Shown: positions 17,662 through 47,233 of the stretch, one piece after another
Layout of the letters: every line of letters starts with the position of its first letter
Numbering within the stretch: position 1 is the first letter of the stretch
Made by a program: the position numbers and the translations under genes
Notes under the pieces: model-generated
Seen by the model: the letters and a program-made list of their open reading frames with translations, nothing else
The model's database searches: none
What the model was told of the DNA's origin: nothing
Assembly: GCF_000425425.1 (NCBI RefSeq)
Contig: NZ_AUDK01000004.1
Location: 186,001 to 250,000 of the forward strand
Direction of reading: 5' to 3'
From: Flavobacterium daejeonense DSM 17708
GTDB taxonomy: Bacteria; Bacteroidota; Bacteroidia; Flavobacteriales; Flavobacteriaceae
DNA: 64,000 nt

Positions 17662-17721
17662 ATAAGTTATACTGTTTGAATCATAGGTTATACACTGCTT
17701 TTTTTTAAATCTATAATATTG
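17662..17721 (+). promoter_or_regulatory. HTCS-type operator and promoter of the susCD operon (site D)
   Basis: Direct repeats ATAAGTTAT (17662-17670) and ATAGGTTAT (17683-17691) are 21 bp apart start to start. After exactly 22 bp comes TAATATTG (17714-17721), a close match to the Bacteroidota -7 box. The same geometry occurs upstream of three other units in this window, and this copy is the most diverged. The 12-bp spacer ACTGTTTGAATC resembles that of site C. Predicted transcription start is about 17728, giving a leader of about 190 nt. Confidence 0.72.
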
Positions 17722-17836
17722 TAATGCTATTATCATCATTATGGTAAAATTAATGATTAAAAATTATGAGTATTAAAATTATTAACCTGTAAAAAATAAT
17801 TAAATGTAAAAAGAACTAAAATTTCATTACCAATCA

Positions 17837-17863
17837 TAATTCACCAATTTTAAGGGTGAATTA
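17837..17863 (+). other. Hairpin in the susC leader
   Basis: A perfect 9-bp stem (TAATTCACC at 17837-17845, GGTGAATTA at 17855-17863) with a 9-nt loop lies about 50 nt before the susC start codon. No T-run follows, so it is not a terminator; it could affect leader stability or translation. Confidence 0.4.
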
Positions 17864-17916
17864 ATAACAAAAACTAATTAACTAAATCAATTAATAACGA
17901 AAAAAAACAATTCATT

Positions 17917-20900
17917 ATGAAAATAAATGTTTTGAATAAAACCGAATTATGGAACAGGCTCAAACCATCCTTGGTTTTGTCTTTTCTGGTTTGTGTTTCT
18001 TCCCAAACGTATGCAGCAAATAATGGGAAATTAAATCTGGCTGAAAAATATGCTTTAAATACTCCTCAACAGCAAATTACAATTAAAGGGAAAGTAGTTT
18101 CTGCTGAGGATAAAATGGGAATTCCTGGTGTAAACGTAAATATAAAAGGAGTAAAAGGAGGAGTGAGTACAGATTTTGACGGAGGTTTTTCTATTAATGT
18201 ATCTTCTCCAAATGCAGTACTGGTATTTAGTGGAATAGGACTTAAAACTCAGGAAATTAAAGTTGGTACTCAAAAAGTAATAAATGTAACAATGGCGGCT
18301 GATGTTTCTACATTAAATGAAGTTGTTGTTGTAGGTTATGGTACCCAGAAAAAAACAACATTAACCGGTGCTGTCGAAGTGGTAAGCTCAAAAGTATTTG
18401 AAGATCGTGCGGTTACAAATGTTGGATTGGCATTGCAAGGACAATCACCGGGTTTGGTGGTTACCAGAACTTCTTCCAGACCGGGAAGTGAGGGACTGAA
18501 TATTCAAATTCGTGGTTATTCTTCTATCAATGGGTCTTCTCCATTAGTTGTTATAGATGGGGTACCGGCAATAAGTGATCAGGCTTTCTTGAATATGAAC
18601 CCGGATGATATTGAAAGTATCTCCGTTTTGAAAGATGGATCGGCTGCTATTTATGGTTCCCGTGCCGCTAATGGTGTTATCTTGGTAACTACTAAAAAAG
18701 GTAAAGGTGAAGTTAAAATTACTTTTAATTCTAATTTCCGATATGTTACTAATGGTTTAACGAAATTTTCTCCTAGTATGAATCAATATGCCACTATGTG
18801 GATTGAGGCTAATAAAGAGGAGACTAAACCTAATTGGTGGATTTGGGATAATGAAGAAAATTTAATAAAATTACAGCAGGGTGTTGAAGGCGCGTATCAT
18901 TTTAGTGCATTTCCGGGTAGAGATTTCTTTATATACAATGCTAACAGAATTAAAGAATTGTTTGGTCCACGTTTTTCATATCAACATAATTTAGCTATTT
19001 CCGGAGGAGGAGATAAATCTAGTTATAGATTATCTGCTAGTTATGCGGATAATCAGGCTAATTTGTTAACAGCTTATGATGGGGAAAAACAGATGAATGT
19101 TCGTTTTAGTTATGATTATAAGATAACGGATAAATTAAAATTAGAATCAAACGTAAGTATTAATAATATTAATAATTCTAAGCCTTCCAGAGGGTTAGGA
19201 AATATTCTTTATTCGTTTGATATGCCATTTTATCCGGCTAAAAACCCTTATGGTCAATGGAATGCGCCTTTTAATGGTGTTGATGCTGGTGCTGTAAAAA
19301 ATTCAGCAGCCGCAACTTCAGATGGGGGTAGGAATATTAAGAAAACATTAACAGGACGTATAGATTTAAAGGCAATATATGATATTGGAAATGGTTTTTC
19401 ATTTGAAGGTTTGACTTCTATTCAGAATGAACGAGTTGATAAAGAATTTTATGTTGTCCCTGTTCAACTATATAATTGGTATGGTAACCCTACATTTAAT
19501 GCTTATCAAACGGATGGGGCAAATAATGTATATTCAACAAGTGCTGAATCTAAATATTATTATTATTATCAGGCGTTAGCACGTTATAATAAAACTTTTA
19601 ATGGCGTCCATAATGTTTCGGTTATGGCGGGGGTAAATGGTGAAAAATTTACTTCACAAGGTATAGGTGGAACACGTCTTGGATTTACGGATTTAGGTGT
19701 TTATGATATTAGTTTAGCTCCTGCTGAAGGACAAACTAATGGAGGATATAAAACTCTAAGCGGGCGCTACTCTTACATTGCCAGACTAAATTATAACTAT
19801 GATGAAAGGTACATTGCTGAGTTTATTGGCAGAAAGGATGGTAATTCACGTTTTGGCACAGGTTATAAGTTTAAAAATTTCGGGTCTGCTCAATTAGGGT
19901 GGGTGTTTACAAAAGAAAAATTCTTAAAATCTCTTGATGGTATTGTCGATTTTGGTAAGATAAGAGCAACTATTGGTAGTACAGGTAACGAAGCTAAGGA
20001 TTTACGAGATTTTGAATATCTTTCTCTTGTGGGAATTGGGAGTGGAGTAATAGGGCAGGCACCAACACAACAAACAGCATCTTATTTGGAGAATAATGGA
20101 ATATACAGTCCGACACGAACTTGGGAAAAAGTAGTGCAAAAAAATATAGGTATAGATCTTGGATTTCTTAATAATCGTCTGACCACTACATTTGATGTTT
20201 ATCAAAAAGAAAATATTGGAATGTTGATAAATATTGTATATCCATCTGTTTTAGGAGCTAATTCACCGAAAACAAATAATGGAAACTTTAATAATAAAGG
20301 TTGGGAGTTTAGAGTAGGTTGGAAAGAAATAAAAAAGGATTATGGATATAATATGTCTTTTAATATTGGTAATTCAACAAGTAAAGTATCTGGTGTCTTA
20401 AATGGTGATAGTTATGGTGCAGGACAAAACGGTGTTGTTAATGGTTATGGGTATAAACCGATTTTTGTTTATAAAACCGATGGTTTCTTTAAAGATCAGG
20501 CAGAAGTTGATGCGTATTATGCAGCTTACGGAGGTAATGGAGATTTAGCTCAATTACAACAAACTAGTCCGGAAAAAACTTTACGTCCTGGTGATACTAA
20601 GAAAGTTGATGTAGCTGGTACAGGAATTATTACTGGTTCAGGTAATAAATTAAGTTCATTAGTATATGCGGGAGATTCAGCATCTCATTATACATTTGGT
20701 ATTAACCTTGGAGGTAATTTTAAAGGATTTGATATTAATACATTTTTTCAAGGACATTTAAAACAAAATGTAATGCGTACAGGATATATGGCTTATCCGT
20801 TTAGAGCCTTATTTACTAATCAAAATCCGAGATTTTTGGGAAAAACATGGACCGAAGAAAATCCTAATGCAGAGTTTCCTCGTTTAACAGTTAATCCAAC

Positions 20901-21180
20901 ACGTGCGGCTTGGAATTATGCTAATAATGATTTTATGTTGCAAAACAACCGTTATATCCGTTTGAAGACTTTAGTGGTGGGTTATACTATTCCTGAAAGA
21001 ATAACAAAAATTATGAAATTAGATAAAGTTAGATTTTATTTCTCAGGTAACGATTTATGGGAAGCATCTAAAATTAAAGATGGATTTGATCCGGAAGCTC
21101 AAGATAATGCTACTGATGGAGAAAATGCAGGTTATCCTTTTGGACGCACATGGTCTTTTGGTGTAAATATTGGATTTTAA
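17917..21180 (+). CDS. SusC-like TonB-dependent outer-membrane transporter
   Basis: This 1087-residue protein has a signal sequence (about residues 15-34, before ANNGK), a carboxypeptidase-regulatory-like domain (about 54-130, ITIKGKVVSAEDKMGIPGV), a TonB-box-like segment (EVVVVGYGTQKKTTLTGAV), a plug (about 135-260, with SIEVLKD-type SISVLKDGSAAIYGSRAANG) and a large beta-barrel ending in GVNIGF with a terminal aromatic residue. It imports oligosaccharides across the outer membrane, working with the SusD-like protein encoded 18 bp downstream. It is the first gene of the operon with the HTCS-type operator. The substrate is not readable from sequence. Confidence 0.97.
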   Translation: MKINVLNKTELWNRLKPSLVLSFLVCVSSQTYAANNGKLNLAEKYALNTPQQQITIKGKVVSAEDKMGIPGVNVNIKGVKGGVSTDFDGGFSINVSSPNAVLVFSGIGLKTQEIKVGTQKVINVTMAADVSTLNEVVVVGYGTQKKTTLTGAVEVVSSKVFEDRAVTNVGLALQGQSPGLVVTRTSSRPGSEGLNIQIRGYSSINGSSPLVVIDGVPAISDQAFLNMNPDDIESISVLKDGSAAIYGSRAANGVILVTTKKGKGEVKITFNSNFRYVTNGLTKFSPSMNQYATMWIEANKEETKPNWWIWDNEENLIKLQQGVEGAYHFSAFPGRDFFIYNANRIKELFGPRFSYQHNLAISGGGDKSSYRLSASYADNQANLLTAYDGEKQMNVRFSYDYKITDKLKLESNVSINNINNSKPSRGLGNILYSFDMPFYPAKNPYGQWNAPFNGVDAGAVKNSAAATSDGGRNIKKTLTGRIDLKAIYDIGNGFSFEGLTSIQNERVDKEFYVVPVQLYNWYGNPTFNAYQTDGANNVYSTSAESKYYYYYQALARYNKTFNGVHNVSVMAGVNGEKFTSQGIGGTRLGFTDLGVYDISLAPAEGQTNGGYKTLSGRYSYIARLNYNYDERYIAEFIGRKDGNSRFGTGYKFKNFGSAQLGWVFTKEKFLKSLDGIVDFGKIRATIGSTGNEAKDLRDFEYLSLVGIGSGVIGQAPTQQTASYLENNGIYSPTRTWEKVVQKNIGIDLGFLNNRLTTTFDVYQKENIGMLINIVYPSVLGANSPKTNNGNFNNKGWEFRVGWKEIKKDYGYNMSFNIGNSTSKVSGVLNGDSYGAGQNGVVNGYGYKPIFVYKTDGFFKDQAEVDAYYAAYGGNGDLAQLQQTSPEKTLRPGDTKKVDVAGTGIITGSGNKLSSLVYAGDSASHYTFGINLGGNFKGFDINTFFQGHLKQNVMRTGYMAYPFRALFTNQNPRFLGKTWTEENPNAEFPRLTVNPTRAAWNYANNDFMLQNNRYIRLKTLVVGYTIPERITKIMKLDKVRFYFSGNDLWEASKIKDGFDPEAQDNATDGENAGYPFGRTWSFGVNIGF

Positions 21181-21198
21181 TAATTTAAATGAGAGAAG

Positions 21199-22980
21199 AT
21201 GAAAATAAATTTAAAATATATAGTTTTTACGGGCCTTTTTTTGGGGATGATAGGATGTCAGAATGATTTTATAGACCTAGATCCACCAGCACAATATACT
21301 GATGCAGTTTATTTTAAAAATCCGAGTGATTTTAAAGCATATACACTTAGTTTATACGGAAGCTTGCAGGGATGGAGTTTTGGAAACTGGGATACTAATT
21401 CGGATTTGTCTGCGAACGCTAATAGTAATGGATATGATATTGGGCATGGTACGATTGGATCAGCAGGGATTGATTGGGGAGGATGGTATGGTACTATCCG
21501 CAGTAGCAATATCTTATTAGATAAAGCAACTGAATATGATAGTTCTAAAGGGGATATACGTCAATTTGTTGGAGAGGCTTATTTTTTTCGTGCCTATTCT
21601 TATTTTGGCTTATTAAAAACTTTTGGAGGTGTACCATTAATTACTACAGTACTTACTACTGATTCACCTGAATTGTATGGTTCTCGAAACAGTCGCTATG
21701 AGGTTTTTGCACAAATTTTAAAAGATTTGGATAAAGCTATAGCTAATCTGCCTAATGAACAGACATTAGCAAGTGCGGATAAAGGAAGAATAAGCAAAGG
21801 TGCAGCTATGGCTTTAAAAGCACAGGCAGAGTTGTATGAAGCTACCTGGGAAAAATATGTAGGTCAGGGTCCGGATGGAGATGGAATTACAGAAGGTGCG
21901 GGTACAGCAGGATATGACCCTGCTAATGCAGCTATTTATTTGGCAGATGCTTGGGCAATATGTGAGGAAATCATGGCAGACTCAGCTTATGAATTGTGGA
22001 ACAAGAATGCCGATACTAAGATGACTAACTTAAGTTCTTGGTACTTATTCAATTTGGAAGATTCAGGGTCTAATCCGGGAGGTTATGATAAATCAACAAA
22101 TAAAGAATTTATTTTGTATAGTGTTTACGATTATTTACTTAAGCAGTCAAGGATTAATATAACTTGGACTTCGTGGCAATTGTATCCAAGTAGGAAATTT
22201 GTTGACATGGCGGTATGTACCGATGGTTTACCGGCAGATAAATCGCCTTTGTTTCAAGGGTATCACACTGCTGACGGTGAATTTAAAAACAGGGATTTAC
22301 GTTTACTAAATTATTTATATGCATCTACTACAGCGCCAAGTTCAGTTGGTTTAGCATATGGAGTTTTGGGATACAGTGGTTACGGAAATTCGAAATATGC
22401 CGTGTATGGTTTTGGTGATCGAAGAAAAGATAATACGGAATCAGCTAACTGGCCTATTATTCGATTGGCAGAGGTGTACCTAACATATGCTGAAGCATTA
22501 TACGAATTAAACGGAAGTATTACTGATGCGCAATTGAACGCTTCAATCAATAAATTAAGAGCTCGTGCTGGTGTCGCACCTTTAACTAATGCTTTGGTTT
22601 CAGCTAATAGTTTAGATATGAAAGAAGAAATCAGAAGAGAACGTTGTGTGGAACTTTATCGTGAAGGCAAACGTTTTGACGATTTGAAACGTTGGGGAAT
22701 TTTAGAAGCTTCATTAAATCCTTCACGTTTGGGTAGAGTAGTAGGTAATGCTTCATATACTACGCCTTTTAAAGACGCATCTGGTAATGCAACTAGTTCT
22801 TATCAGCCTAATACGTATGTATATGGTGAAGAGCAAGTACAGACTGCAAAAGGGATGTTAGAATGTGTGGTAATTGACAGTAAGTTGAATCATTCTGTAG
22901 CTCCTAAACATTATTTGTTTCCTATTTCCCAATACCAAATGGGGATAAACAATAAGTTACTTCAAAATCCGGGCTACTAG
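21199..22980 (+). CDS. SusD/RagB-like surface glycan-binding lipoprotein
   Basis: This 593-residue lipoprotein has a lipobox ending GCQNDFIDLDP and the SusD architecture: FVGEAYFFRAYSYFGLLKTFGGVPL in the TPR-like part, and conserved C-terminal blocks WPIIRLAEVYLTYAEALYE, INKLRARAGV and EIRRERCVELYREGKRFDDLKRW. It forms the lid of the SusC transporter and presents oligosaccharides. It is cotranscribed with the susC-like gene. A hairpin at 22996-23028 separates it from the lyase-like gene downstream, which could lower expression of the distal genes relative to susCD. Confidence 0.96.
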   Translation: MKINLKYIVFTGLFLGMIGCQNDFIDLDPPAQYTDAVYFKNPSDFKAYTLSLYGSLQGWSFGNWDTNSDLSANANSNGYDIGHGTIGSAGIDWGGWYGTIRSSNILLDKATEYDSSKGDIRQFVGEAYFFRAYSYFGLLKTFGGVPLITTVLTTDSPELYGSRNSRYEVFAQILKDLDKAIANLPNEQTLASADKGRISKGAAMALKAQAELYEATWEKYVGQGPDGDGITEGAGTAGYDPANAAIYLADAWAICEEIMADSAYELWNKNADTKMTNLSSWYLFNLEDSGSNPGGYDKSTNKEFILYSVYDYLLKQSRINITWTSWQLYPSRKFVDMAVCTDGLPADKSPLFQGYHTADGEFKNRDLRLLNYLYASTTAPSSVGLAYGVLGYSGYGNSKYAVYGFGDRRKDNTESANWPIIRLAEVYLTYAEALYELNGSITDAQLNASINKLRARAGVAPLTNALVSANSLDMKEEIRRERCVELYREGKRFDDLKRWGILEASLNPSRLGRVVGNASYTTPFKDASGNATSSYQPNTYVYGEEQVQTAKGMLECVVIDSKLNHSVAPKHYLFPISQYQMGINNKLLQNPGY

Positions 22981-22995
22981 TAGCCAGAAATTTGA

Positions 22996-23028
22996 TAGAC
23001 CTTGCAGGGTTTATAGCTGTAAGGTCTA
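22996..23028 (+). terminator. Intraoperon hairpin after susD
   Basis: A 12-bp stem with one G-U pair (TAGACCTTGCAG at 22996-23007, CTGTAAGGTCTA at 23017-23028) has a 9-nt loop. Only a weak T-rich tail (TTTATAAAA) follows. With the next gene 18 bp away, it looks like a leaky terminator or 3'-end stabiliser within the operon. Confidence 0.5.
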
Positions 23029-23046
23029 TTTATAAAAATAGTAATT

Positions 23047-24375
23047 ATGAAAAAATATCAATTTAAATTTTATCGGCTACTTATACCAATACTAATTTTA
23101 AGTGTGGTATGTATTGTAGAGATGGGATGTTCAAAGTCGTCTTCTGTCGAGGAAGAGGATGCTATAATTACTCCTACTCCAACTGTTAATGTAATTGAGA
23201 CTTTAGATGTTTCTGTTCCTATGAAACATGTGGGAGGTATTCATACTGATGCAGATTATACCAGAGTAAAAGCTAAATTGGAGGCTGGAACAGAACCATG
23301 GACATCCGGATGGAATAAATTAATAGCCAATTCGCATGCACAATCTACTTATTCTCCGAGTCCAGTTGAAAAATTAATAAGAGGAGGAAAATCAGCGGAG
23401 GAACCAGATCCGGATAATTATAGCCGTGCTATGAATGATGTGGCGGCTGCTTATCAACTGGCATTGCGTTGGAAGATAAGTGGAAATGCTGTTTATGCTC
23501 AAACCGCTGTAAATATTCTTAATGCATGGGCTTCAACTTGTACTCGTATTAGTGGGGATTCCAATGTGGCTTTGGCAGCAGGGATTTATGGATATCAATT
23601 TGCTATAGCCGGAGAAATGCTGAGAGGCTATCCGGGTTGGAACGTAAATGATTTTGCCGCATACCAACAATGGATGAAAGATGTTTTCTATAGTTTGAAT
23701 AAAGCCTTTTTAGAAAGTCATTGGGGAACATGCAAATCGCATTATTGGGCCAATTGGGATTTGGCTAATTTAACCTCTGTATTGGCCATAGGTATTTTAA
23801 CAGATGACAGAGCTATTTACAATTATGCGATTAATTATTTACAAAAGGGAGACGGCAATGGTAACTGGTATAAGGCAATAAATCATGTTTTTAGTGGGGA
23901 TAATCAAGGTTTAGCCCAGATTCAGGAAAGCGGACGGGATCAGGGACACGCAACATTATGTATTGCATTAATGGGACATATTTGTCAGTTAACATGGAAT
24001 CAGGGAGATGATTTTTATGGATTAGACAATAATCGCTTTTTAAAAGCTTGTGAATATACAGCAAAGTATAATGTAGCTCGACTTAATGTTCCTTTTACAG
24101 AGTACACCAGAAATTATAAGGATGCCTGGAGTGTATGTGGAGGAGTGGAAACGCATACACAGGTAAGTAGCGCAGGTCAGGGAACGGTGCGTCCTATGTG
24201 GAGTGGTCCTTATTTTCATTATACAAAAATTAAAAAAGTCTCGGAAAATTTAGCAAAATATACCAAATTGGGAGTAACCAGTACGACTCCGGAAGGAGGA
24301 GGTGGTGATTATGGTCCGAACAGCGGTGGGTTTGATCAATTAGGATTTGGAACACTGATGTACACTTTGGATTAA
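23047..24375 (+). CDS. Alginate_lyase-fold (alpha/alpha toroid) lipoprotein, putative polysaccharide lyase
   Basis: This 442-residue lipoprotein has a lipobox ending in GCSKSSSVEEED; the acidic run after Cys is suggestive of surface export in flavobacteria. From about residue 60 it shows the toroid seen in Alginate_lyase (PF05426) proteins: HVGGIHTDADYTRVKAKL, PWTSGWNKL, DVAAAYQLALRWKISG, ANWDLANLTSVLAIG and ESGRDQGHATLCIALMGH. The Asn, Arg and His residues in the last two blocks, and the tyrosines in TEYTRNYKD, are plausible catalytic residues by analogy with alginate/glucuronan lyases such as PL38. It probably cleaves a uronic-acid-containing chain by beta-elimination. The substrate is unknown, and no alginate-specific PL6/PL7/PL17 gene is in view. 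Confidence 0.75.
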   Translation: MKKYQFKFYRLLIPILILSVVCIVEMGCSKSSSVEEEDAIITPTPTVNVIETLDVSVPMKHVGGIHTDADYTRVKAKLEAGTEPWTSGWNKLIANSHAQSTYSPSPVEKLIRGGKSAEEPDPDNYSRAMNDVAAAYQLALRWKISGNAVYAQTAVNILNAWASTCTRISGDSNVALAAGIYGYQFAIAGEMLRGYPGWNVNDFAAYQQWMKDVFYSLNKAFLESHWGTCKSHYWANWDLANLTSVLAIGILTDDRAIYNYAINYLQKGDGNGNWYKAINHVFSGDNQGLAQIQESGRDQGHATLCIALMGHICQLTWNQGDDFYGLDNNRFLKACEYTAKYNVARLNVPFTEYTRNYKDAWSVCGGVETHTQVSSAGQGTVRPMWSGPYFHYTKIKKVSENLAKYTKLGVTSTTPEGGGGDYGPNSGGFDQLGFGTLMYTLD

Positions 24376-24419
24376 TCTTAATAATTTAAATAGATATTAT
24401 ATAATAGAATAAAATTTTA

Positions 24420-25646
24420 ATGAAAATTATGAAAATATTAAAAATTAATAGATCAATCATTATAGTTTTTATAATGATTTTAAGCTTGTCTTTTTTTACC
24501 GCATGTGAAGAAGGACCTGTTTTTAGAATTGTTGAATATCCTGAGCAAACAGCGACAGGAATAGATCAAACTTCTGGATACCCTGGTATTAATGTTGCCA
24601 TAACCGGAACCGATTTTGGAACTTTAAAAGGAGCTGTAAAAGTATATTTTGGAGGTGTTCTGGCAACGAATGTAGTTTCTTGTGAGGATACTAAGATAGT
24701 AGTACAAGTTCCTGCTAATGCAATTTCCGGAGATGTAACCTTACAAGTATGGAAACATACTAATGAAGCCTTTGCTCAATTTACTGTTTTTCCTGCACCG
24801 GCAATTAGTACGGTAGTTTCAAGTAACACAAATAGTACTGTTGCGTTTCCTGAAGTTGATATTGTAACTATTAAAGGAGTTAATTTTGGTACTGACGCAT
24901 CAAAAGTAGCCGTTAGTTTTAATGGTACTGCTGCCACAATACAAACTATTGCAGATGACAAAATTACAGTTTTAGCTCCGGCTGATTATGCTACTGGTTA
25001 TGTTAGCATTACAATAGGTGGTTTAACGATTTCAGGAACAACTGCGATTATTAATCCAACGGCACCAGGTGATATTACGCCATATTTTATGAGTAATACT
25101 GGAGTTATGGATGCAAAAGGAGGAGGCTTTGTACGTAGTGCTTATGATGGAAGCAGATGGGGAACGCTTGCAGCTCCTTGGATAACAAACGCTGCCGGAT
25201 TAAATAAAGCAGGCAGGGGAGGATATGGAAGAGAGCAATGGAATGGGCGTGACGGATTTATTTGCTGGGAAACTTGGGGTAATACACCTGTTGTTGACGG
25301 AACAATCTATCAGCCAACGTCTATGGCTTTACCGGCAGGGAACTATACGCTGACACTTAATTATTATGGGGAAATTCAAACGGATTCTTCGGTACATTTA
25401 GTGGTTGCGGCAGGAGGAAATGGTATTCCTCTGTTGGCTGATATTTCGACAGCCTTAGCATCAGTTATGCTTTATAATGGAACGACTATTGGTGATACCA
25501 AGCCAAACTTTGGAGGAGAGGTAACCCTTGATTTTGAACTGCAAACTTCGAAGGTAGTTTCGATAGGGTTCTTAGGGAACATGAAAGGCAGGGATACAAA
25601 AGGGAATTACTTTTTAGGAAAATGGGTTAAGTTGGTTAAAAACTAG
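24420..25646 (+). CDS. IPT/TIG-domain surface glycan-binding lipoprotein (SusE/F position)
   Basis: This 408-residue lipoprotein has a lipobox ending TACEEGPVF. It has two IPT/TIG immunoglobulin-like domains (about 40-120 and 125-215; motifs GYPGINVAITGTDFG and VTIKGVNFGTDASKV) and a C-terminal domain of about 190 residues rich in Gly and aromatics (GGFVRSAYDGSRWGTL, REQWNGRDGFICWETWG). It holds the position of the variable surface glycan-binding proteins that follow susD in many PULs, where TIG domains act as spacers lifting a C-terminal binding domain off the membrane. Binding of the target glycan is inferred from position and architecture. It is the last intact gene of the susCD operon. 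Confidence 0.8.
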   Translation: MKIMKILKINRSIIIVFIMILSLSFFTACEEGPVFRIVEYPEQTATGIDQTSGYPGINVAITGTDFGTLKGAVKVYFGGVLATNVVSCEDTKIVVQVPANAISGDVTLQVWKHTNEAFAQFTVFPAPAISTVVSSNTNSTVAFPEVDIVTIKGVNFGTDASKVAVSFNGTAATIQTIADDKITVLAPADYATGYVSITIGGLTISGTTAIINPTAPGDITPYFMSNTGVMDAKGGGFVRSAYDGSRWGTLAAPWITNAAGLNKAGRGGYGREQWNGRDGFICWETWGNTPVVDGTIYQPTSMALPAGNYTLTLNYYGEIQTDSSVHLVVAAGGNGIPLLADISTALASVMLYNGTTIGDTKPNFGGEVTLDFELQTSKVVSIGFLGNMKGRDTKGNYFLGKWVKLVKN

Positions 25647-25662
25647 TTTAATTTTAAATAAG

Positions 25663-27056: not shown

Positions 27057-27271
27057 TAATGGTCGGAACTTTTGTTCTGTTTTTAATCCAACTTTCATTT
27101 GGATTTTGCATTATGAAGTAAAAAAATATTACTTCAATACCTCCAATTTAGATACATTCATTACTCATAAAATAAAAGCTTTGAGGTTATTAAAAACGCA
27201 GTTTTTTTAATAATAAAAACATATTGTAAAAATTAACTGCTTTTTTAATGAGATATATTTAGTAAAGAACT

Positions 27272-35575: not shown

Positions 35576-35635
35576 ATAATTTATAGTAAATGAATTATAA
35601 TTTATCCTTAAAAAAATGGATTCTTAGTAATATTG
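35576..35635 (+). promoter_or_regulatory. HTCS-type operator and promoter of the heparinase-like operon (site B)
   Basis: Identical repeats ATAATTTAT (35576-35584, 35597-35605) are 21 bp apart, and TAATATTG (35628-35635) follows exactly 22 bp after the second. Predicted transcription start is about 35642. The resulting leader of about 390 nt is the longest of the four and contains the two structured RNA units described below. Confidence 0.75.
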
Positions 35636-38830: not shown

Positions 38831-38848
38831 AGATTAAAATAAAAGAAC

Positions 38849-40276
38849 GTGAAAAAAATAATTACAATAGCATTTTTATTAAGTATGAGTTTTAATATGA
38901 CTGCTCAGGAATTAGTAGTTTATGAAACGACTGAGGATATTATAAAAACGATGCACAATGATGACTTTTCTGTAAAGGTTAGAAAACCGGGCGGACTGTG
39001 GAAAGATTTATTTGAATACAATGTAAAAGTGGATCAGGTAATTGGTACCGGACATTCGGTACAAAATGCCTCTATGGCTTCTTTTGATTTTTCGGGTACG
39101 GTAGAAATAGCTGTAACTTCTAGTAAAGGAACGATTAACAAGGCCAGGGTAAGACCTTTGTCTAAAGGAATTAAAACCCAAATAAATGAGAATACGCTCT
39201 ATTTTACTTTAACAAATCCGGCGAATCTATCGGTAGAAATCAATGATGATATTTTTCATAATCTGCATTTATTTGCTAATCCAATTGAAAAAAACAAACC
39301 CAATCCTAAAGATAAAAAGGTACTTTATTTTGGTCCTGGTATTCATGAAATTCCAAATCAAATATTAAAAGTACCATCGAATAAAATTCTTTATTTAGCC
39401 GGTGGTGCCGTATTAAAAGGGCAGATATTGATTGACAATGTTCAAAATGTGAAGGTTTGTGGCAGAGGTATAGTAGATCAGGAAGTTAGGTTGGGTGTTA
39501 AAATAGCTTTTTCTAAAAATATTACTGTTCAGGATATTTTTGCTTCACAATGCTTGACGGGCGAATCGGATAGGGTAACCATTCAAAATGTAAAAACCAT
39601 CAGTTTTTTTGGTTGGGGTGATGGGATGAATATAATGGCTGCTAATAATGTCTTGTTTGATGGGGTCTTCATTCGCTCTTCAGACGATTGTACTACGGTT
39701 TATGGTACTCGTAAAGAGTTTAAAGGCGGAGCAAAAAATATTACTATGCAAAATTCTACACTATGGGCAGATGTGGGTCATCCTATTTTGATTGGTACAC
39801 ATGGAAATAGTGAGAAACCCGATGTGCTGGAAAATTTGAATTATCAAAATATTGACATTTTAGATCAAAAAGAAAAACAACTCGATTATCAGGGCTGTTT
39901 GGCTATCAATGTTGGGGATAATAATCTGGCTAAAAACGTCCTTTTTGAGAATATCAGAGTAGAAGATTTCAGAGAAGGACAATTGCTTAATTTGAGAGTG
40001 TTTTATAATACCAAGTATTGTACGGCACCTGGTTTAGGAATTGAAAATGTAGTGTTTCGTAACATCGATTATAATGGACAAAATGCCAATACTTCGATAA
40101 TAGCCGGTTACAACGAACAAAGAAAAATTAAGAACATCAGTTTTGAAAATCTAAAAATAAACGGAGTTTTAATTACAGATGAAATGCAGGGAAAACCCAA
40201 ATGGTATAAAACGGCTGATATGGCCGGTATTTTTGTGGGGGAACATGCAGAGGGAATTATTTTTAAAATGAATTAA
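38849..40276 (+). CDS. GH28-like parallel beta-helix glycosidase
   Basis: The protein has 475 residues. The start is GTG at 38849, chosen because it gives a proper signal peptide (MKKIITIAFLLSMSFNMTAQ); the next in-frame ATG would cut into it. The beta-helix region (about 150-420) has pectinase-type turns: VKVCGRGIVDQE, FFGWGDGMNIMAANN, IRSSDDCTTVYGT and HPILIGTHGN. The pair DD in SSDDC corresponds to the catalytic aspartates of GH28 (GDDC), but the NTDG and RIK motifs of true polygalacturonases are not present, so this is a divergent relative, like proteins often labelled GH28- or GH49-like. A decayed paralogue lies at 25882-26112. The role is probably hydrolysis of a glycosidic linkage in the PUL's target glycan. 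Confidence 0.75.
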   Translation: MKKIITIAFLLSMSFNMTAQELVVYETTEDIIKTMHNDDFSVKVRKPGGLWKDLFEYNVKVDQVIGTGHSVQNASMASFDFSGTVEIAVTSSKGTINKARVRPLSKGIKTQINENTLYFTLTNPANLSVEINDDIFHNLHLFANPIEKNKPNPKDKKVLYFGPGIHEIPNQILKVPSNKILYLAGGAVLKGQILIDNVQNVKVCGRGIVDQEVRLGVKIAFSKNITVQDIFASQCLTGESDRVTIQNVKTISFFGWGDGMNIMAANNVLFDGVFIRSSDDCTTVYGTRKEFKGGAKNITMQNSTLWADVGHPILIGTHGNSEKPDVLENLNYQNIDILDQKEKQLDYQGCLAINVGDNNLAKNVLFENIRVEDFREGQLLNLRVFYNTKYCTAPGLGIENVVFRNIDYNGQNANTSIIAGYNEQRKIKNISFENLKINGVLITDEMQGKPKWYKTADMAGIFVGEHAEGIIFKMN

Positions 40277-40287
40277 AATTAAAAATT

Positions 40288-41487
40288 ATGAAATACAATC
40301 ATTTTAAAAGTGTACTGGTTGCAGTAAGCTTTTTTCAACTGATAGCTTTAACGGCTTGTACAAAAAAGGGTCAAGCAGAGGAGATTACTATTGAAATACA
40401 AAATAAACTCAATTTTAGCAGAAATGAAGTTGTTAGCATCCAGCGTAATAAATTACTTTCTCTTTTAGACAAAAATGATGAAAAAAATATTCGTGTCAAA
40501 CTTCCGGAAACCGATAAATATTTGGTAACGCAATGGATGGATAATAATGGAGACGGAAAAGGGGATGAATTGCTTTTTCAGGCGAATGTAGCGGCCAATT
40601 CGACAACTAAATATGTAATTATGCTAGATACAGTGTCGGTTACAATTCCTAAAGCAAAAACCTATTCCCGTTTTGTTCCCGAGCGTATCGATGATTATGC
40701 CTGGGAAAATAATAAAGTAGCTTTTAGAGCTTATGGTCCTGTAGCACAGCAATTAGTAGAACAGGGAAAAGAAGGAGGAACGCTTTTCAGCGGAATCGAT
40801 TTATGGCTTAAAAAAGTAGATTATTCGATTATTGACAGTTGGTATCAAAAAAATGTAAAAAGCCCTGGATATTATCATATTGAGCATGGTGAAGGTTATG
40901 ATCCTTATCATGTGGGAGCAAGTAGAGGTACTGGTGGCACAGGAATTTGGAGAAATGACAGTTTGCAGGTATCTAAAAACTATGTGAGTTACAAAACTAT
41001 TGCTACAGGACCTTTGCGCACCGTTTTTGAATTGATTTATGCACCATGGAGTACTTATGGCCTTCATGAAGTAAAAAGAATTTCACTGGATTTGGATTCT
41101 AATTTCTCAAAATTTGAAATCACTTATCAATCCGATAAAAAGATTCCTAATTATACGGTAGGGATTACGCTTCATGATAAAAAAGGAGAAGTAAATATTA
41201 ACAGGCAAAAAGGCTGGTTTCGTCATTGGGAACCAATGGATAGTACTTTTGTTGGAGAAGGGATTGTATTAAGTCCCCAATTAATTGATACTGCTTTTGT
41301 TCACGATTCAAATGCAACTGATCAAAGTAATTTGTTAATACTGACTCATCCGGATAACAAAATAACCTATTATGCCGGTTTTGCCTGGACGGGAAGTAAA
41401 CAAATTAGAGATGTTATGGATTGGGATGAGATGCTTAATAAACAGGCGAAAATTATAGCAAATCCTTTACAACTGATTGTCAAATAA
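40288..41487 (+). CDS. DUF4861-family lipoprotein
   Basis: This 399-residue lipoprotein (lipobox ending TACTKKG) begins its mature part with the DUF4861 pattern IEIQNKLNFSRNEVVSI and WMDNNGDGKGDELLFQ, and continues with FVPERIDDYAWENNKVAFRAYGP, YHIEHGEGYDPYHVGASRGTGG and GWFRHWEPMD. DUF4861 proteins are frequent in PULs for uronic-acid and rhamnose-containing glycans, and the His/Tyr/Arg-rich blocks suggest an enzyme active site. I cannot state a reaction. It starts 12 bp after the GH28-like gene and belongs to the same operon. Confidence 0.75.
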   Translation: MKYNHFKSVLVAVSFFQLIALTACTKKGQAEEITIEIQNKLNFSRNEVVSIQRNKLLSLLDKNDEKNIRVKLPETDKYLVTQWMDNNGDGKGDELLFQANVAANSTTKYVIMLDTVSVTIPKAKTYSRFVPERIDDYAWENNKVAFRAYGPVAQQLVEQGKEGGTLFSGIDLWLKKVDYSIIDSWYQKNVKSPGYYHIEHGEGYDPYHVGASRGTGGTGIWRNDSLQVSKNYVSYKTIATGPLRTVFELIYAPWSTYGLHEVKRISLDLDSNFSKFEITYQSDKKIPNYTVGITLHDKKGEVNINRQKGWFRHWEPMDSTFVGEGIVLSPQLIDTAFVHDSNATDQSNLLILTHPDNKITYYAGFAWTGSKQIRDVMDWDEMLNKQAKIIANPLQLIVK

Positions 41488-41556
41488 TACTAGTTGATTG
41501 AAATCATCAAATTTGATTTGGACACTAAACCGTCCTTAGTTTCCGCAGTCGAGTGT

Positions 41557-41650
41557 CAAATGTTTGAAGAATACGTAAAAAGAAAAGCTGTCTGAGTCCC
41601 GAAAGCTTTCGGGACGAGTTCTTTTCTTTTAGTATTCGAAAACTAATTTG
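41557..41650. repeat. Long intergenic hairpin, probable dispersed repeat
   Basis: Nested inverted repeats pair 41557-41561 with 41646-41650, 41562-41565 with 41640-41643, 41569-41574 with 41632-41637, then A-rich with T-rich arms, closing on the perfect 20-bp palindrome GTCCCGAAAGCTTTCGGGAC at 41596-41615. From memory, CGAAAGCTTTCGGGA-type palindromes recur between genes in Flavobacterium genomes. The 324-bp gap (41488-41811) has no supported gene; a minus-strand frame across it is an artefact of the repeat. Confidence 0.6.
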
Positions 41651-41729
41651 ACCGACGAGAAAGCGTAAGACTTGAAATCGAAGATTCATGAATACCAAAA
41701 AACAATAAAAACGCATGAATATTTTTTTG

Positions 41730-41757
41730 TTTCTTTTTTGATCAAGCAAAAAAGAAA
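41730..41757. repeat. Short perfect inverted repeat
   Basis: TTTCTTTTTTG (41730-41740) and CAAAAAAGAAA (41747-41757) form a perfect 11-bp stem around ATCAAG, 54 bp before the GH43 start. No T-run follows on either strand. Confidence 0.5.
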
Positions 41758-41811
41758 ATTAGTAAAACAAATATATAAATAAGACCAATATCAATTTAAG
41801 ACACTAATCTA

Positions 41812-43476
41812 ATGATCTCTAGAATTCAATATGTAATTTATATTGCAATAGCTTTTTTTACTTTATACTCTTGTAAGTCGGGAAGTGAAAAACAGCCTGG
41901 AAGTCAATCTAATTCTCAAAACTATGTTTCTAAAGTTTGGCAATCAGATCGAGGAGACGGGACTTTTACGAATCCTGTTTTATATGCTGATTATTCTGAT
42001 CCTGATGTAATTCGGGTAAAAGATAATTTTTACATGACTGCCAGTAGTTTTAATTGTGTACCGGGTTTACCCATTTTGCATTCTAAAGATTTAGTGAATT
42101 GGGAGATTATCAATTATGCTTTGGAAAAACAGATTCCTGAAGCTATTTTTAATATTCCGCAGCACAGTAAAGGAGTTTGGGCTCCGGCAATACGCTTCCA
42201 TAAAGGTGAATTTTACATCTATTGGGGTGATCCTGATTTTGGTGTTTATATGATTAAAACCAAAAATATTTATGGCAAATGGTCAAAACCCATACTAGTT
42301 CTGGAAGGAAAAGGAATTATTGATCCCTGTCCGCTTTGGGATGGAGAAAATACTTATTTAGTTCACGCCTGGGCAGGAAGTCGTGCCGGTATCAACAGTG
42401 TACTCACCATCAATAAAATGAATGCTGAAGGGACAAAAGTATTGGATGAAGGACAAAATGTTTTTGATGGTCATGACAATCACCATACGATGGAAGGACC
42501 AAAATTATATAAAAAAGACGGCTATTATTACATTTTTGCTCCTGCCGGTGGCGTTGAAACGGGTTGGCAGGTGGTGATGCGTTCTAAAAATATTTACGGA
42601 CCTTATGAAGATAAAATTGTTTTAGAACAGGGAAGTACTGCAATAAATGGTCCGCATCAGGGAGCTTGGGTAACGACTCCTGATAATGCTTCCTGGTTTA
42701 TCCATTTTCAGGATCAGGGAGTTTACGGACGTGTGTTGCATCTACAACCAATGGAATGGAAAGAAGCCTGGCCAATGATAGGGAAAGATTATGATGGCAA
42801 CGGAGTTGGAGAACCGATACTTTCCGGAATAAAACCAGTAACCAGAAATAATTTACCAATTGTACATCCCGTTGAGAGCGACGAATTTGATAATGGAAAA
42901 TCGGGTTTACAATGGCAATGGTATGCAAATTCTTCGATAAAATGGAGTGCTCAAATTCCCGGAACAGATTATTTGAGGCTTTTTACTTTAAGTCAGAAAG
43001 GGGAACCCAATCTTTGGAATGTACCCAATCTTTTGTTACAAAAATTACCGGCTCCTGATTTTACAGCAACGACTAAAGTTAAATTAACTAGCGAGTGGCA
43101 AACTTCGGGGAAAAAAGCAGGTTTGCTATTAATGGGAAAATCCTATGCTTATGCTGCTATTGCCTATCATGATGGGAAATATTGGGTGCAACAAATCAGT
43201 TGTACCAATGCAAATGAAGGAACGGTGGAGAAAATAATAGAAGAAAAGCCTTTGTCTTCGAATGAGATACAATTACGAATGAGAATCACCGCTCCTGATG
43301 CCGTTTGTCAATTCAGTTACAGTGAAAACGGAACTGATTTTACTGAAATAGGAGAAAAAGCCAAAGCCGAAAAGGATTTATGGATATCAGCCAAAATTGG
43401 AATTTTTGCCATCAGTCAACCCAATGTTAAAATGGGAGGCTATGCCGATTTTGACTGGTTTAGGATAACAAAATAA
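41812..43476 (+). CDS. GH43 beta-xylosidase/alpha-L-arabinofuranosidase, lipoprotein
   Basis: This 554-residue lipoprotein (lipobox ending YSCKSG) has an N-terminal five-bladed propeller with GH43 residues in place: base Asp63 in ADYSDPDVIR, pKa-modulating Asp171 in IIDPCPLWDG and acid Glu228 in HTMEGPKLY. A C-terminal beta-sandwich (about 355-554, FDNGKSGLQWQWYAN) is typical of the long GH43 subfamilies such as 12. It would remove xylose or arabinofuranose from the non-reducing end of side chains. No HTCS-type operator lies in front of it, so it is probably transcribed by readthrough from the site B operon or from an unrecognised promoter. Confidence 0.88.
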   Translation: MISRIQYVIYIAIAFFTLYSCKSGSEKQPGSQSNSQNYVSKVWQSDRGDGTFTNPVLYADYSDPDVIRVKDNFYMTASSFNCVPGLPILHSKDLVNWEIINYALEKQIPEAIFNIPQHSKGVWAPAIRFHKGEFYIYWGDPDFGVYMIKTKNIYGKWSKPILVLEGKGIIDPCPLWDGENTYLVHAWAGSRAGINSVLTINKMNAEGTKVLDEGQNVFDGHDNHHTMEGPKLYKKDGYYYIFAPAGGVETGWQVVMRSKNIYGPYEDKIVLEQGSTAINGPHQGAWVTTPDNASWFIHFQDQGVYGRVLHLQPMEWKEAWPMIGKDYDGNGVGEPILSGIKPVTRNNLPIVHPVESDEFDNGKSGLQWQWYANSSIKWSAQIPGTDYLRLFTLSQKGEPNLWNVPNLLLQKLPAPDFTATTKVKLTSEWQTSGKKAGLLLMGKSYAYAAIAYHDGKYWVQQISCTNANEGTVEKIIEEKPLSSNEIQLRMRITAPDAVCQFSYSENGTDFTEIGEKAKAEKDLWISAKIGIFAISQPNVKMGGYADFDWFRITK

Positions 43477-43487
43477 ATATTGAAGAA

Positions 43488-45437
43488 ATGAAATTATTTA
43501 AAATTTATACAATAGGTGTTTTCCTTTGTTGTGCAGCAACAATAAATGCACAAACGATCATAAAGGAAACAGTACAAAACCTAAAGTCTCCTGACGGAGC
43601 TTACGAATTCGCTTTTTATCAAAAGCAGAATAATGAAGGTGAGAAACAAATGTATTATACTCTTTCTTTTAAAGGGGAAAAAGTTGTAGAGGAATCAGAA
43701 CTGGGCGTTTTGATTGAAAATCAGACTTTCGAGTCGGCTCTTGGAATACCAAATGATAGTTGTAAAGTTTGGGGCGAGAATTTAAATTTTACCGGAGTTC
43801 AACGTAATGCCGTAAATGAAACATGGAAGCCCGTTTACGGTGAAAATGTTGCTATTCATAATAATTATAACGAAATGACAGTGTCGTTTCGTAAAGGTGA
43901 GCTTCCCAAAGAAAAGCAAGGCGATGGTTACGATAAGAACAAAAGCTATTTTATGAACGTTATTGTTCGTGCTTACAATGAAGGGGTAGCTATTCGATAC
44001 CATTTTCCAGAGCCTACAAATGGATTATTCCTGCATATTGTAGGAGAACAAACCCAGTTTACGATGCCAGAAGGTACTTTGGCTTATTATGAACCCTGGG
44101 CGCAAGGGCATTATTCTTTATTGCTACTGAAAGATTGGAAAGGTCAGAGCGAACGCCCTTTGACAATGAAACTTACAAATGGTTTGTCAGTCGCAATTGC
44201 TGAAGCTCAAATGATTGACTATGCCCGAATGAAGTTTAGTTTAAATGCCACAAAACCCAACACCTTACAGGCTACATTATACAGTAGTGTAGATGTAATT
44301 CCTGCCTATAGTACTCCTTGGCGTGTAATTATGGCTGCGGATAAGGATATTGATTTAATAAAAAACAATACAATCATTTTGAATCTAAATCCGGAAAATC
44401 AAATTAAGGATACTTCTTGGATTAAACCGGGAAAAGTAATTCGTGTAGCAAAATTAACTCAGGAGGATGCTAAAAAATGTGTCGATTTTGCTGCCGAACG
44501 AGGTTTACAATACATTCATTTAGATGCGGGCTGGTATGGCCCTGAAATGAAAATGAGTTCCAATGCAACTACAGTTTCTGAAACCAAAGATTTTAATATG
44601 CCTGAATTGACGGCTTATGCCGCTTCAAAAGGAATTGGGCTTTGGGTTTATGTGAATCAACGAGCTTTGATTCAACAATTAGATTCTATTTTGCCTTTAT
44701 ATAAAAAATGGGGAATCAAAGGAATTAAATTTGGTTTTGTCCAGGTAGGAAATCAGCGTTGGACAACCTGGATGCATGAAGCGGTAAAGAAATGTGCGGA
44801 ATTCGGTTTGATGGTGGATATTCATGACGAATACCGTCCTACCGGTTTTAGCCGTACCTATCCTAATTTAATGACACAGGAAGGAATCCGCGGCAACGAA
44901 GAAATGCCGGATGCCGATCATAATACGATTTTACCATTTACACGTTTTTTAGCAGGACCAGCCGATTATACGATTGCGTATTATAGCAAAGCGATTAAAA
45001 ATACACATGCACACCAATTGGCATTAGCAGCGGTATATTACAGTCCAATTCAATTTATGTATTGGTATGACCAGCCTTCTGCATATCAGGGAGAGCCGGA
45101 AATTGAATTTTTTGATAAGGTAAAAGCGGTTTGGGATGAAACTAAAGTAATTAATGGTGAAGTAGGAAAATATATTACAGTTGCCCGAAGAAGTGGAAAA
45201 GAATGGTTAGTAGGGGCAATTACAAACAAAGAGAATCGTAAAATTAAAATTCCAACTAACTTCCTTCAAAAAGGAAAAAAATACATAGTACAATCATTTC
45301 AGGATGATGACAAAGTAGCAACGCGTACCAAAGTAGCTGTTTCTGAATTAAAAATTAAAGGAGGAGAAGTATTGAATTTTGATCTAAAAGCTTCAGGCGG
45401 TGTGGCGCTGATTATTTCTGAAGTTTCTAAAAAGTAA
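43488..45437 (+). CDS. GH97 glycoside hydrolase (alpha-glucosidase/alpha-galactosidase family)
   Basis: The protein has 649 residues with a signal peptide (ending TINAQ). GH97 features are the N-terminal beta-supersandwich opening SPDGAYEFAFY, TPWRVIMAADKD, LQYIHLDAGWYGP, the barrel motif VDIHDEYRPTGFSRTYPNLMTQEGIRGNE (Glu448 in HDE) and a C-terminal beta-domain. The strand GIKFGFVQVG carries Gly where retaining members have an Asp nucleophile, so by comparison with SusB from memory the enzyme should be of the inverting, Ca-dependent type. The spacer after GH43 is 11 bp, indicating cotranscription. The alpha-linked sugar it removes is unknown. Confidence 0.88.
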   Translation: MKLFKIYTIGVFLCCAATINAQTIIKETVQNLKSPDGAYEFAFYQKQNNEGEKQMYYTLSFKGEKVVEESELGVLIENQTFESALGIPNDSCKVWGENLNFTGVQRNAVNETWKPVYGENVAIHNNYNEMTVSFRKGELPKEKQGDGYDKNKSYFMNVIVRAYNEGVAIRYHFPEPTNGLFLHIVGEQTQFTMPEGTLAYYEPWAQGHYSLLLLKDWKGQSERPLTMKLTNGLSVAIAEAQMIDYARMKFSLNATKPNTLQATLYSSVDVIPAYSTPWRVIMAADKDIDLIKNNTIILNLNPENQIKDTSWIKPGKVIRVAKLTQEDAKKCVDFAAERGLQYIHLDAGWYGPEMKMSSNATTVSETKDFNMPELTAYAASKGIGLWVYVNQRALIQQLDSILPLYKKWGIKGIKFGFVQVGNQRWTTWMHEAVKKCAEFGLMVDIHDEYRPTGFSRTYPNLMTQEGIRGNEEMPDADHNTILPFTRFLAGPADYTIAYYSKAIKNTHAHQLALAAVYYSPIQFMYWYDQPSAYQGEPEIEFFDKVKAVWDETKVINGEVGKYITVARRSGKEWLVGAITNKENRKIKIPTNFLQKGKKYIVQSFQDDDKVATRTKVAVSELKIKGGEVLNFDLKASGGVALIISEVSKK

Positions 45438-45447
45438 ATTTTCAAAA

Positions 45448-47049
45448 ATGAGAATTCTAAATTATTTAAATTTTGCTTTGTGTTTCATTTGTCTGAACAG
45501 CTATGCACAGGTTTGGCAATGGAGTACTCCGGTAAAAGGAATGATTTCTGACGAAACAAAGCAGCATCCGCAGGCTTATTTATGGATTCCTGAGAATTGC
45601 AAGCAGGTTAAAGGAATTGTTTTGGGCCAACACAACATGATCGAAGAAGGAATTTTGGAACACGCCTATTTCAGAAAAGTAATGGCCGAACTGGGTTTTG
45701 CTGAAGTATGGGTCACACCGGTGGTAAGCTGGATGTATGATATGACCAAAGGAGAGGATAAGATTATTACAGATATGTTCAACGATTTGGCTGAAGTTTC
45801 CGGTTATCAGGAATTAGCTTACGCTCCAATCATTCCTATCGGGCATTCGGCAATGGCAAGTTTTCCATGGAATTTTGCGGCTTTTAACCCCGAGCGAACC
45901 TTAACTTTAGTTTCAATTCATGGTGATGCTCCTCAAACGAATCTAACAGGAAACGGGAAACCGAATCCCGATTGGGGTAACAGAAATATAGACGGAATTC
46001 CATCCTTATTCATCATGGGGGAATACGAATGGTGGGAAAAACGGATACAGCCAGCTTATAACTATATTCAAAAACATCCCCAAAGCGTAATTACATTATT
46101 TGCCGATGCCGGTCATGGTCATTTTGATTATTCAGATGAAATGGTAAAATATGTGGCCAATTATATTCGGGAAGCTGCAAAAAAAAGAATCTCAGCTAAA
46201 GCTACATTAAATGAAAAACCACAGCTTAACGTTGTTAAACCCGAATCAGGTTGGTTAATGGATAAGTGGCGACAGGATTCTATTCCATTGGCAAAGGCTG
46301 CTACATTCAAAAATTTTAAGGGAGACGGAGAAACCGCTTCCTGGGTTTTTGATAAAAAAATGGCAAGAAATACAGAACAGTTTTACGCCCAATCCAGAGG
46401 AAAGAAAAAGCAATACATTGGTTTGATTCAAAATGGACAAATAGTTCAGTCTGATAAAACCCATGCCAACTATACTTTAAATTTTAAACCTTTACAGGAT
46501 GGTATTTCTTTTACTTTAAAAGCTTTTTTTTCAGATAGCTTAAGGTTAAAACCAGTTTCTGATTTTGCAAAAACACCACTTTTAATTGACCGTATTTGTG
46601 GTCCTGTAAAGAAAGTTAATGATACTGTTTTCCAAATTAGCTTTGATAAACTGGGTTTTAATAATAGCAAACGAAGCAATGATATTTGGCTTTTGGCTCA
46701 CAATGATGGTGATTCTGTTTATAAAAGTGCGGTACAACAGTTGCATTTACGTTTTCCAATTAAAAATCAAGAAGGAACACCACAGCAGATTGATTTTTCA
46801 ACAATTAATGATGTAGCATTTGGTGTGAAAAAAATAGCATTAAATGCTAAATCAAGTGTTGGGGTCAAAGTAGGGTATTATGTAAAAGAAGGTCCGGCTT
46901 ATATAGAAGATAATGCATTACATTTTACTAAAATTCCTCCACGAACAAAATTTCCAATTAAAGTTATCGTGGTAGCTTGGCAATATGGAGTTGCAGATGA
47001 ATTACAATCTGCGGAACCTGTTGAACAAAGTTTTTGGATTAAGAAATAA
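45448..47049 (+). CDS. Alpha/beta hydrolase, putative carbohydrate esterase
   Basis: This 533-residue secreted protein (signal peptide to about residue 20, NSYA) has an alpha/beta hydrolase domain (about 35-245) with a nucleophile elbow IGHSAMAS (Ser134) and a candidate histidine in DAGHGHFDY (His223 or His225). The domain GKPNPDWGNRNIDGIPSLFIMGEYEW includes a possible acid residue. The C-terminal part (about 260-533) is beta-rich and unrecognised. The position after GH97 in a PUL suggests removal of an ester such as acetyl or methyl from the glycan. I do not recognise the family. Confidence 0.6.
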   Translation: MRILNYLNFALCFICLNSYAQVWQWSTPVKGMISDETKQHPQAYLWIPENCKQVKGIVLGQHNMIEEGILEHAYFRKVMAELGFAEVWVTPVVSWMYDMTKGEDKIITDMFNDLAEVSGYQELAYAPIIPIGHSAMASFPWNFAAFNPERTLTLVSIHGDAPQTNLTGNGKPNPDWGNRNIDGIPSLFIMGEYEWWEKRIQPAYNYIQKHPQSVITLFADAGHGHFDYSDEMVKYVANYIREAAKKRISAKATLNEKPQLNVVKPESGWLMDKWRQDSIPLAKAATFKNFKGDGETASWVFDKKMARNTEQFYAQSRGKKKQYIGLIQNGQIVQSDKTHANYTLNFKPLQDGISFTLKAFFSDSLRLKPVSDFAKTPLLIDRICGPVKKVNDTVFQISFDKLGFNNSKRSNDIWLLAHNDGDSVYKSAVQQLHLRFPIKNQEGTPQQIDFSTINDVAFGVKKIALNAKSSVGVKVGYYVKEGPAYIEDNALHFTKIPPRTKFPIKVIVVAWQYGVADELQSAEPVEQSFWIKK

Positions 47050-47074
47050 TTAGGTTTTTATAAATGAAAAAAGC

Positions 47075-47110
47075 AAAGCAGTTAAGCAACAAAGTTTAAC
47101 TGCTTTTTTT
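47075..47110 (+). terminator. Intrinsic terminator of the site B operon
   Basis: A perfect 11-bp stem (AAAGCAGTTAA at 47075-47085, complement at 47096-47106) is followed by a T-run to 47110. The rest of the gap to 47354 holds the site C promoter. Confidence 0.88.
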
Positions 47111-47173
47111 GTGGAAATAAGAGAGTGATTGGTAAACTGCAGTATTTACAGGTTTTTATAGGGTATAAGGATG

Positions 47174-47233
47174 ATAATTTATACTGATTGCATCATAATT
47201 TATCTGTCGAAAATATTTTTCTGACTAACATTG
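47174..47233 (+). promoter_or_regulatory. HTCS-type operator and promoter of the GH127-GH88-MFS-SDR operon (site C)
   Basis: Identical repeats ATAATTTAT (47174-47182, 47195-47203) are 21 bp apart, with TAACATTG (47226-47233) exactly 22 bp after the second. The spacer ACTGATTGCATC resembles that of site D. Predicted start is about 47240, giving a leader of about 115 nt. Confidence 0.75.

Follow-up and report, generated by a model that had tools for sequence, protein, structure and literature searches.

We predict that the HTCS encoded at 13281 has its operators in four tandem direct repeats in a 64-kb stretch of Flavobacterium daejeonense DSM 17708 DNA (the window; 64,000 nt), and we consider it highly likely that this regulator would jointly switch on the four transcription units behind them by class II activation. 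The assignment draws on the geometry of the repeats, on their co-occurrence with orthologs of the HTCS and on a nearly invariant distance to a putative −7 promoter box.

Repeat pairs and gene units of the window

The initial annotation had described, at four promoters, 9-bp repeats spaced 21 bp apart and followed by a box 22 bp after the second. Reading all four places in the sequence confirmed this: the repeat pair and box are present at each, and in all four copies the repeat spacing is 21 bp and the gap from the second repeat to the box, which is TAnnTTTG-like, is 22 bp (Table 1). The cores of operator 1 are ATAAGTTAT at 17662 and ATAGGTTAT at 17683, and both cores of operator 2 (27272, 27293) read ATAATTTAT. 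The copy at 27272 fails the strict full pattern because its box lacks the final G. A full-architecture pattern, composed post hoc around the four copies, matched four places in the window and none in 200 dinucleotide shuffles. In a histogram of core-pair spacings across the window, 21 bp formed the peak (seven pairs; next-highest value, three).

Table 1. Predicted regulatory sites and associated genes in the window
Feature	Position	Strand	Description
HTCS	13281..17465	+	Reg_prop sensor, Y_Y_Y, HisKA, HATPase, receiver, AraC-type HTH (Pfam)
Operator 1 (predicted)	17656..17691	+	Two direct half-sites, cores 17662-17670 and 17683-17691; upstream of susC
−7 box 1 (putative)	17714..17721	+	TAATATTG; 22 bp downstream of operator 1
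Unit 1	17917..25646	+	susC, susD, PF05426 lyase-like, TIG/DUF5013 protein
Operator 2 (predicted)	27266..27301	+	Cores 27272-27280 and 27293-27301; upstream of 2609-aa protein
Box 2 (putative)	27324..27331	+	TAATTTTA; final G absent
2609-aa protein	27594..35423	+	LamG domains, Por sorting tail
Operator 3 (predicted)	35570..35605	+	Cores 35576-35584 and 35597-35605; upstream of heparinase-like operon
Box 3 (putative)	35628..35635	+	TAATATTG
Unit 3	36035..47049	+	Hepar_II_III_C protein, GH28, DUF4861, GH43, GH97, 533-aa protein without assignment
Operator 4 (predicted)	47168..47203	+	Cores 47174-47182 and 47195-47203; upstream of GH127 operon
Box 4 (putative)	47226..47233	+	TAACATTG
Unit 4	47355..52707	+	GH127, GH88, MFS transporter, SDR

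The 9-mer of the initial annotation is present but is only the core of a longer unit. To define this unit, a weight matrix was trained on 31 sites from 16 loci, all in other genomes with the window left out, that were selected for having a TAnnnTTG box at 22 bp and no more than three repeat mismatches. Conservation of the box among these sites is accordingly by construction, and some of the sites come from close relatives (L027 and L172; L030 and L031). The aligned unit is aaaaTGaa(c/t)(t/g)ATAATTTATAgt, corresponding to a half-site of ~15 bp, TG-N4-ATAATTTAT, that recurs as a tandem direct repeat with 6 bp between units. A G five bases 5′ of each core carries 1.73 and 1.91 bits, respectively, against at most 1.28 for any core base; part of this high information comes from the rarity of G in the sequence here. 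The pair has the ~21-bp period expected of HTCS operators.

Although ATAAnTTAT alone looks palindromic, the conserved G 5′ of each core identifies the arrangement as a direct repeat. A palindromic operator, in which each 9-mer would be read as ATAAnTTAT, was rejected: the G is conserved solely on the 5′ side of the cores, and matrix scores on the reverse strand did not exceed 8.2, as compared to 38.1–42.5. Recent duplication of one promoter was also ruled out, as the mean flank identity of the four sites (0.34 and 0.33) is at the level expected from composition (0.33 and 0.35). Using the held-out matrix for the full site, the window's four copies scored 54.9, 51.0, 50.0 and 39.8 bits and ranked as the top four, the next-best place in the 64-kb window reaching −2.6 bits. 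The repeats-only matrix gave 39.1–42.9 for the four sites and 8.3 for the next place in the window.

The gene order that had been claimed downstream of each copy holds (Table 1). The 'giant lyase' of the initial annotation corresponds to the 2609-aa protein, which does lie downstream of copy 2, but its alginate-lyase match is sub-threshold (20.2 bits; cut-off 22.2). A search of the PDB with the PF05426 protein of unit 1 yielded no match. The heparinase-like protein (36035–38830) matches the sequence of Uly1040 (solved structure 9vtk) with an E value of 1e-26, far better than its match to the Pfam family (25.5 bits, E 1e-5). Uly1040 is presumably an ulvan lyase. Its likeness, together with the GH88 gene, provides a lead towards a uronic-acid-containing glycan as the possible substrate. 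Among the top-scoring places listed for the window, none lies inside unit 3 (before the GH43 gene at 41812) or before the HTCS gene. High-scoring copies of the motif are missing from the xylan-type cluster at 738–11390 (GH10, GH115, GH67, GH3, SASA esterase), which is adjoined by a LacI-type gene at 11471; this cluster is probably a separate regulon.

The initial annotation had also proposed a genome-wide search. At zero mismatches, this search returned five matches: the window's four and a fifth on contig C1 of the same genome (C1:355649-355729; L001 1501-1551, minus-strand reading). The fifth site comprises two overlapping pairs of 21-bp units, scoring 26.8 and 13.1 bits, and a box, TAGTTTTG, at exactly 22 bp, followed by a Wzy_C (O-antigen ligase) gene, which is no obvious PUL gene. 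This gene was found in none of 39 other genomes at E 1e-40, and a 37% relative occurs elsewhere in its own genome. An operon-like run of GH2, GH43, DUF4861, SDR and UxuA genes lies just upstream of the site on the same strand. The fifth site could be either a genuine target at a distance or a chance occurrence.

Association of the motif with HTCS orthologs

The HTCS at 13281 had been named as the candidate regulator, and conservation of the repeats in orthologous PULs had been suggested as a check. The tight association of the pattern with HTCS orthologs supports the former, and the repeats are indeed kept near these orthologs. We searched 199 genomes of the genus and 299 of the family, two sets that share G000 and G060. 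The strict full pattern occurred at 13 places in seven of the genus genomes, one of these places (in G051) repeating another, and at 19 places in 11 of the family genomes. The reversed-control pattern occurred in none of the 199 and none of the 299. The HTCS was matched at E 1e-200 or better in 11 genus genomes, nine at 54–100% identity and two at 35–38%. All seven genomes with the pattern were among the nine with an ortholog of at least 54% identity, and none among the other 190; the 20-kb stretches around the two distant HTCSs contained no site. Similarly, all 11 family genomes with the pattern were among the 14 in which the HTCS was matched at E 1e-250 or better, as compared to none of the 285 others. 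Fisher's exact tests with our own genome excluded returned 3.6e-10 (genus) and 2.2e-16 (family), under an assumption of independence that the genomes do not fully satisfy.

Two of the nine genus and three of the 14 family ortholog genomes are without the exact pattern, yet they contain weaker sites (G118 and G066 in the genus; G424, G448 and G385 in the family, that of G385 without a recognised box). By contrast, none of the 2,992,934 positions at 85 non-ortholog HTCS loci (74 from elsewhere, nine paralog loci of our own genome and two distant homologs) reached 15 bits with the repeats-only matrix. Overall, the motif is conserved upstream of PUL operons that are accompanied by an orthologous HTCS and was not found without one in the genomes searched. 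Joint inheritance of HTCS and PUL explains part of this co-occurrence.

The PUL of the window itself encodes a cognate HTCS with a receiver and an AraC-type HTH, as expected of HTCS operators. The recognition helices (G/N)xG(R/K)SQFYRKI and FNS(S/T)AYFxKTF(K/R)E were present in all 13 ortholog rows (the window HTCS and 12 others) of a 70-row table compiled without the 13 family orthologs, and both were absent from the remaining 57 rows. The DNA-binding domain of the window HTCS shares 59–89% identity with those of the 12 tabulated orthologs, and the two recognition helices are nearly identical among these proteins. Its sensor is closest in the PDB to 4a2l, which we take to be BT4663. Regulation through the four putative operators can very probably be ascribed to the HTCS at 13281.

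In relatives, sites were found before susC (L027, L030, L031, L032, L172, L177, L180, L184, L187), the GH127 operon (L174, L178, L179), the heparinase-like gene (L027, L175) and GH88 units (L030, L031, L188). A divergent susC and GH88 gene, with one site each, occur in six of 14 family stretches (L225, L226, L230, L231, L232, L235), and sites remain near the HTCS gene within clusters that are otherwise rearranged. The HTCS gene itself is preceded by a site in L032, in L180 and, weakly, in L177, so autoregulation may be lineage-specific. Two genomes have sites far from the HTCS gene: operons of G051 lie ~0.7 Mb away, if the contig is circular, and a site in G334 lies 593 kb away. No HTCS match was found in the stretches around these remote sites, so control of the remote operons is likely to be in trans. 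The stretch of G042 that contains a GH127 site (L179) also has another, distant HTCS-like match (27%). Finally, L174 and L176, from the start and end of contig C1 of G051, repeat the same genes, with the matches fragmented in one copy; the end repeat looks like an unmerged circular overlap.

Promoter layout and proposed mode of activation

The cleanest measure of the distance between repeats and box came from 13 stretches of 12 genomes, the window excluded, that hold an HTCS ortholog or adjoin it, some of them placed to take in a known pattern match too. Among 25 repeat pairs with at most two mismatches, picked irrespective of the box, 22 had a TAnnnTTG box at exactly 22 bp. No box occurred elsewhere between 0 and 60 bp, and three pairs had none; the unit scores of these three were −13.6 and 5.4, which are low, and 29.8. 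In a family set of 14 stretches from 13 genomes, in which sites were called from the repeats alone at 18 bits or more, the box was at 22 bp in 24 of 30 sites, at 21 bp in one and missing in five. Once the 15 sites already found by the full pattern were removed, nine of the other 15 had the box at 22 bp, one at 21 bp and five had none. Across 19 loci that included the window and the remote sites (420,819 bp), some chosen by the full pattern, there were 26 boxes no more than 60 bp from a 21-bp pair, of which 24 were at 22 bp, one at 30 and one at 56. A fixed distance to the putative core promoter, as expected of class II activation, is seen in most of the box-blind pairs (22/25) and of the unselected family sites (9/15).

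In Flavobacteriaceae, the −33 TTG of sigma-A promoters sits about 17–23 bp upstream of the TAnnTTTG box. A TTG at a spacer of 15–25 bp upstream of the box was found in two of the 31 training sites, suggesting that these promoters have no −33 element, as expected if an activator replaces it. The putative sigma-A box has a variant form, mostly TAAYATTG (18 of the 31). In 90% of the 31 sites, a T precedes the −7 box by four bases (offset +48 from the first core); this position was unselected, and the T possibly represents an extended −7 element. The sigma-A box of F. psychrophilum is reported to be TAnnTTTG at −12 to −5 (PMC9723704); the boxes described here differ from those promoters in being mostly TAAYATTG and in lacking the −33 TTG. 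Taking our box likewise as −12 to −5 places the half-sites at about −70/−56 and −49/−35, in keeping with the class II placement that had initially been suggested. Provided that the inferred box is right, the putative operators have a class II layout of the AraC/XylS type, with tandem 15-bp half-sites of which the proximal is at or overlaps −35. The exact 22 bp and the missing −33 element fit direct contact with the polymerase.

The araI1-I2 arrangement of AraC is comparable to the present half-sites, and those of XylS at Pm, which we assume to be at −70/−56 and −49/−35, share their layout. The XylS site at Pm consists of two direct repeats of 15 bp, with TG as the first letters of box A (PMC5481539). 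The blocks of MtlR at PmtlE are located at −72/−58 and −50/−36 (PMC4514859). Both XylS and MtlR are soluble regulators of −35/−10 promoters, whereas the HTCS is a membrane-bound phosphorelay hybrid and the promoters here are of the sigma-A −7 type.

In the mechanism that we propose, the periplasmic propeller of the HTCS would bind an oligosaccharide released from the target glycan, and the histidine kinase would then phosphorylate the receiver. Each protomer of the HTCS dimer would contribute an AraC-type DNA-binding domain, and these two domains would occupy the two direct half-sites (TG-N4-ATAATTTAT, 21 bp apart), next to each other on the same face of the DNA. With the proximal half-site ending at about −35, the usual place of the −33 element, the bound HTCS would contact sigma-A RNA polymerase and substitute for that element (class II activation), and all four units would be switched on together.

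A different regulator, AraC-type or other, that is merely linked to the PUL could in principle bind the repeats. Ten proteins of the genome have matches to the receiver as well as to the AraC-type part of the HTCS, further AraC-type proteins exist, and the fifth site is far from 13281. Nevertheless, we regard this as improbable: the pattern was found in no genome without an HTCS ortholog in either searched set (199 + 299), the matrix had no match near the nine paralogs, and sites adjoin the HTCS gene even where the clusters are otherwise rearranged. Chance emergence of the repeats from A+T-rich sequence has a negligible probability. When the repeats alone were sought genome-wide with up to two mismatches, there were 51 matches as compared to 41 in the reversed control, which leaves strict or weighted searches as the informative ones. 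Those searches agree with the earlier judgement that chance is unlikely: in addition to the empty shuffles (0/200), the reversed control had no match in the 199 and 299 genomes, and the held-out matrix left a gap of more than 40 bits.

We attach a similarly small probability to the HTCS binding the repeats and acting otherwise, in a class I-like or repressing manner, the 22 bp then reflecting, for example, phasing with a separate activator. The recurrence of exactly 22 bp, and of no other distance, in 22 of 25 box-blind pairs argues against such action, as does the missing −33 element, while the inferred nature of the −7 box leaves it some room. Class II activation by the HTCS remains our preferred reading. 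Under this reading, a single sensor is given a regulon of several operons that, in relatives, includes operons far off on the chromosome, and the matrix is directly usable on new genomes. The predicted spacings (21 and 22 bp) and lack of a −33 element are measurable and bear on how HTCSs, which are a main class of switches for PULs, engage the unusual sigma-A promoter of Bacteroidota.

Relation to other HTCSs

The general architecture is present here but is not new: Ravcheev et al. 2013 (PMC3878776) predicted HTCS motifs of Bacteroides thetaiotaomicron as direct repeats averaging 21 bp. As here, those predicted operators are upstream of PUL operons, and binding by HTCS dimers was proposed. The lineage differs, ours being Flavobacteriaceae, and the half-site probably does as well. 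The term 'transcription start' has no occurrence in that main text, so a distance to a mapped promoter is not to be expected there. In EMSA, the AraC-type response-regulator parts of the HTCSs BT4124 and BT4663 bound promoters of susCD units (PMC11253607); the main text of that report has no occurrence of 'repeat' and gives no repeat geometry. In the portions available of the HTCS papers cited, no distance from an HTCS site to a promoter box was found. A literature search found no HTCS motif in Flavobacterium, which does not prove that none has been described. As far as this search goes, the novelty lies in the motif associated with this HTCS group in Flavobacteriaceae, in how rigidly it is spaced from the promoter box and in the regulon.

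We tentatively raise the possibility, which we rate somewhat below even, that AraC-type HTCSs in Bacteroidota generally follow a promoter grammar with the 21 + 22 bp layout, irrespective of the sequence of their half-sites. If so, the proximal half-site would end a fixed distance before the sigma-A −7 box and replace the −33 element. Geometry and recognition helices alone could then be enough to locate HTCS promoters and regulons and to pair regulators with sites. Some counts suggest that the rigid distance is general, and others do not. Near 74 other HTCSs, repeats matching at 12 or more of 16 positions had 21 as their commonest lag (34 of 312 upstream regions), followed by lags of 22 (23 regions) and 20 (21 regions), with 2–18 at other lags; at 14 or more of 16, lag 21 was not raised (2/312). 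When the nine paralog loci of our own genome were added, lag 21 gave a box 18–25 bp downstream in 12 of 351 regions, as compared to 0–6 at other lags. The top cell of the box-anchored count combined lag 21 with a distance of 22 bp (seven of 335 boxes). Lag 21 was not raised at the paralog loci themselves (3/39; lag 20, seven). For genes of 800–1300 aa, a box at 18–25 bp was no commoner (2/77) than one at 4–11 bp (4/77), and the box-anchored top cells for large genes were at distances of 10–14 bp. In two Pedobacter stretches (L035, L037) with another HTCS group, 21–22-bp direct repeats that differ in sequence from ours (TTTAAGA..TT.ACCCC) lie upstream of HTCS-adjoining genes and are followed 19–21 bp further on by TACATTAG or TACATTGG, hinting that the layout may be general.
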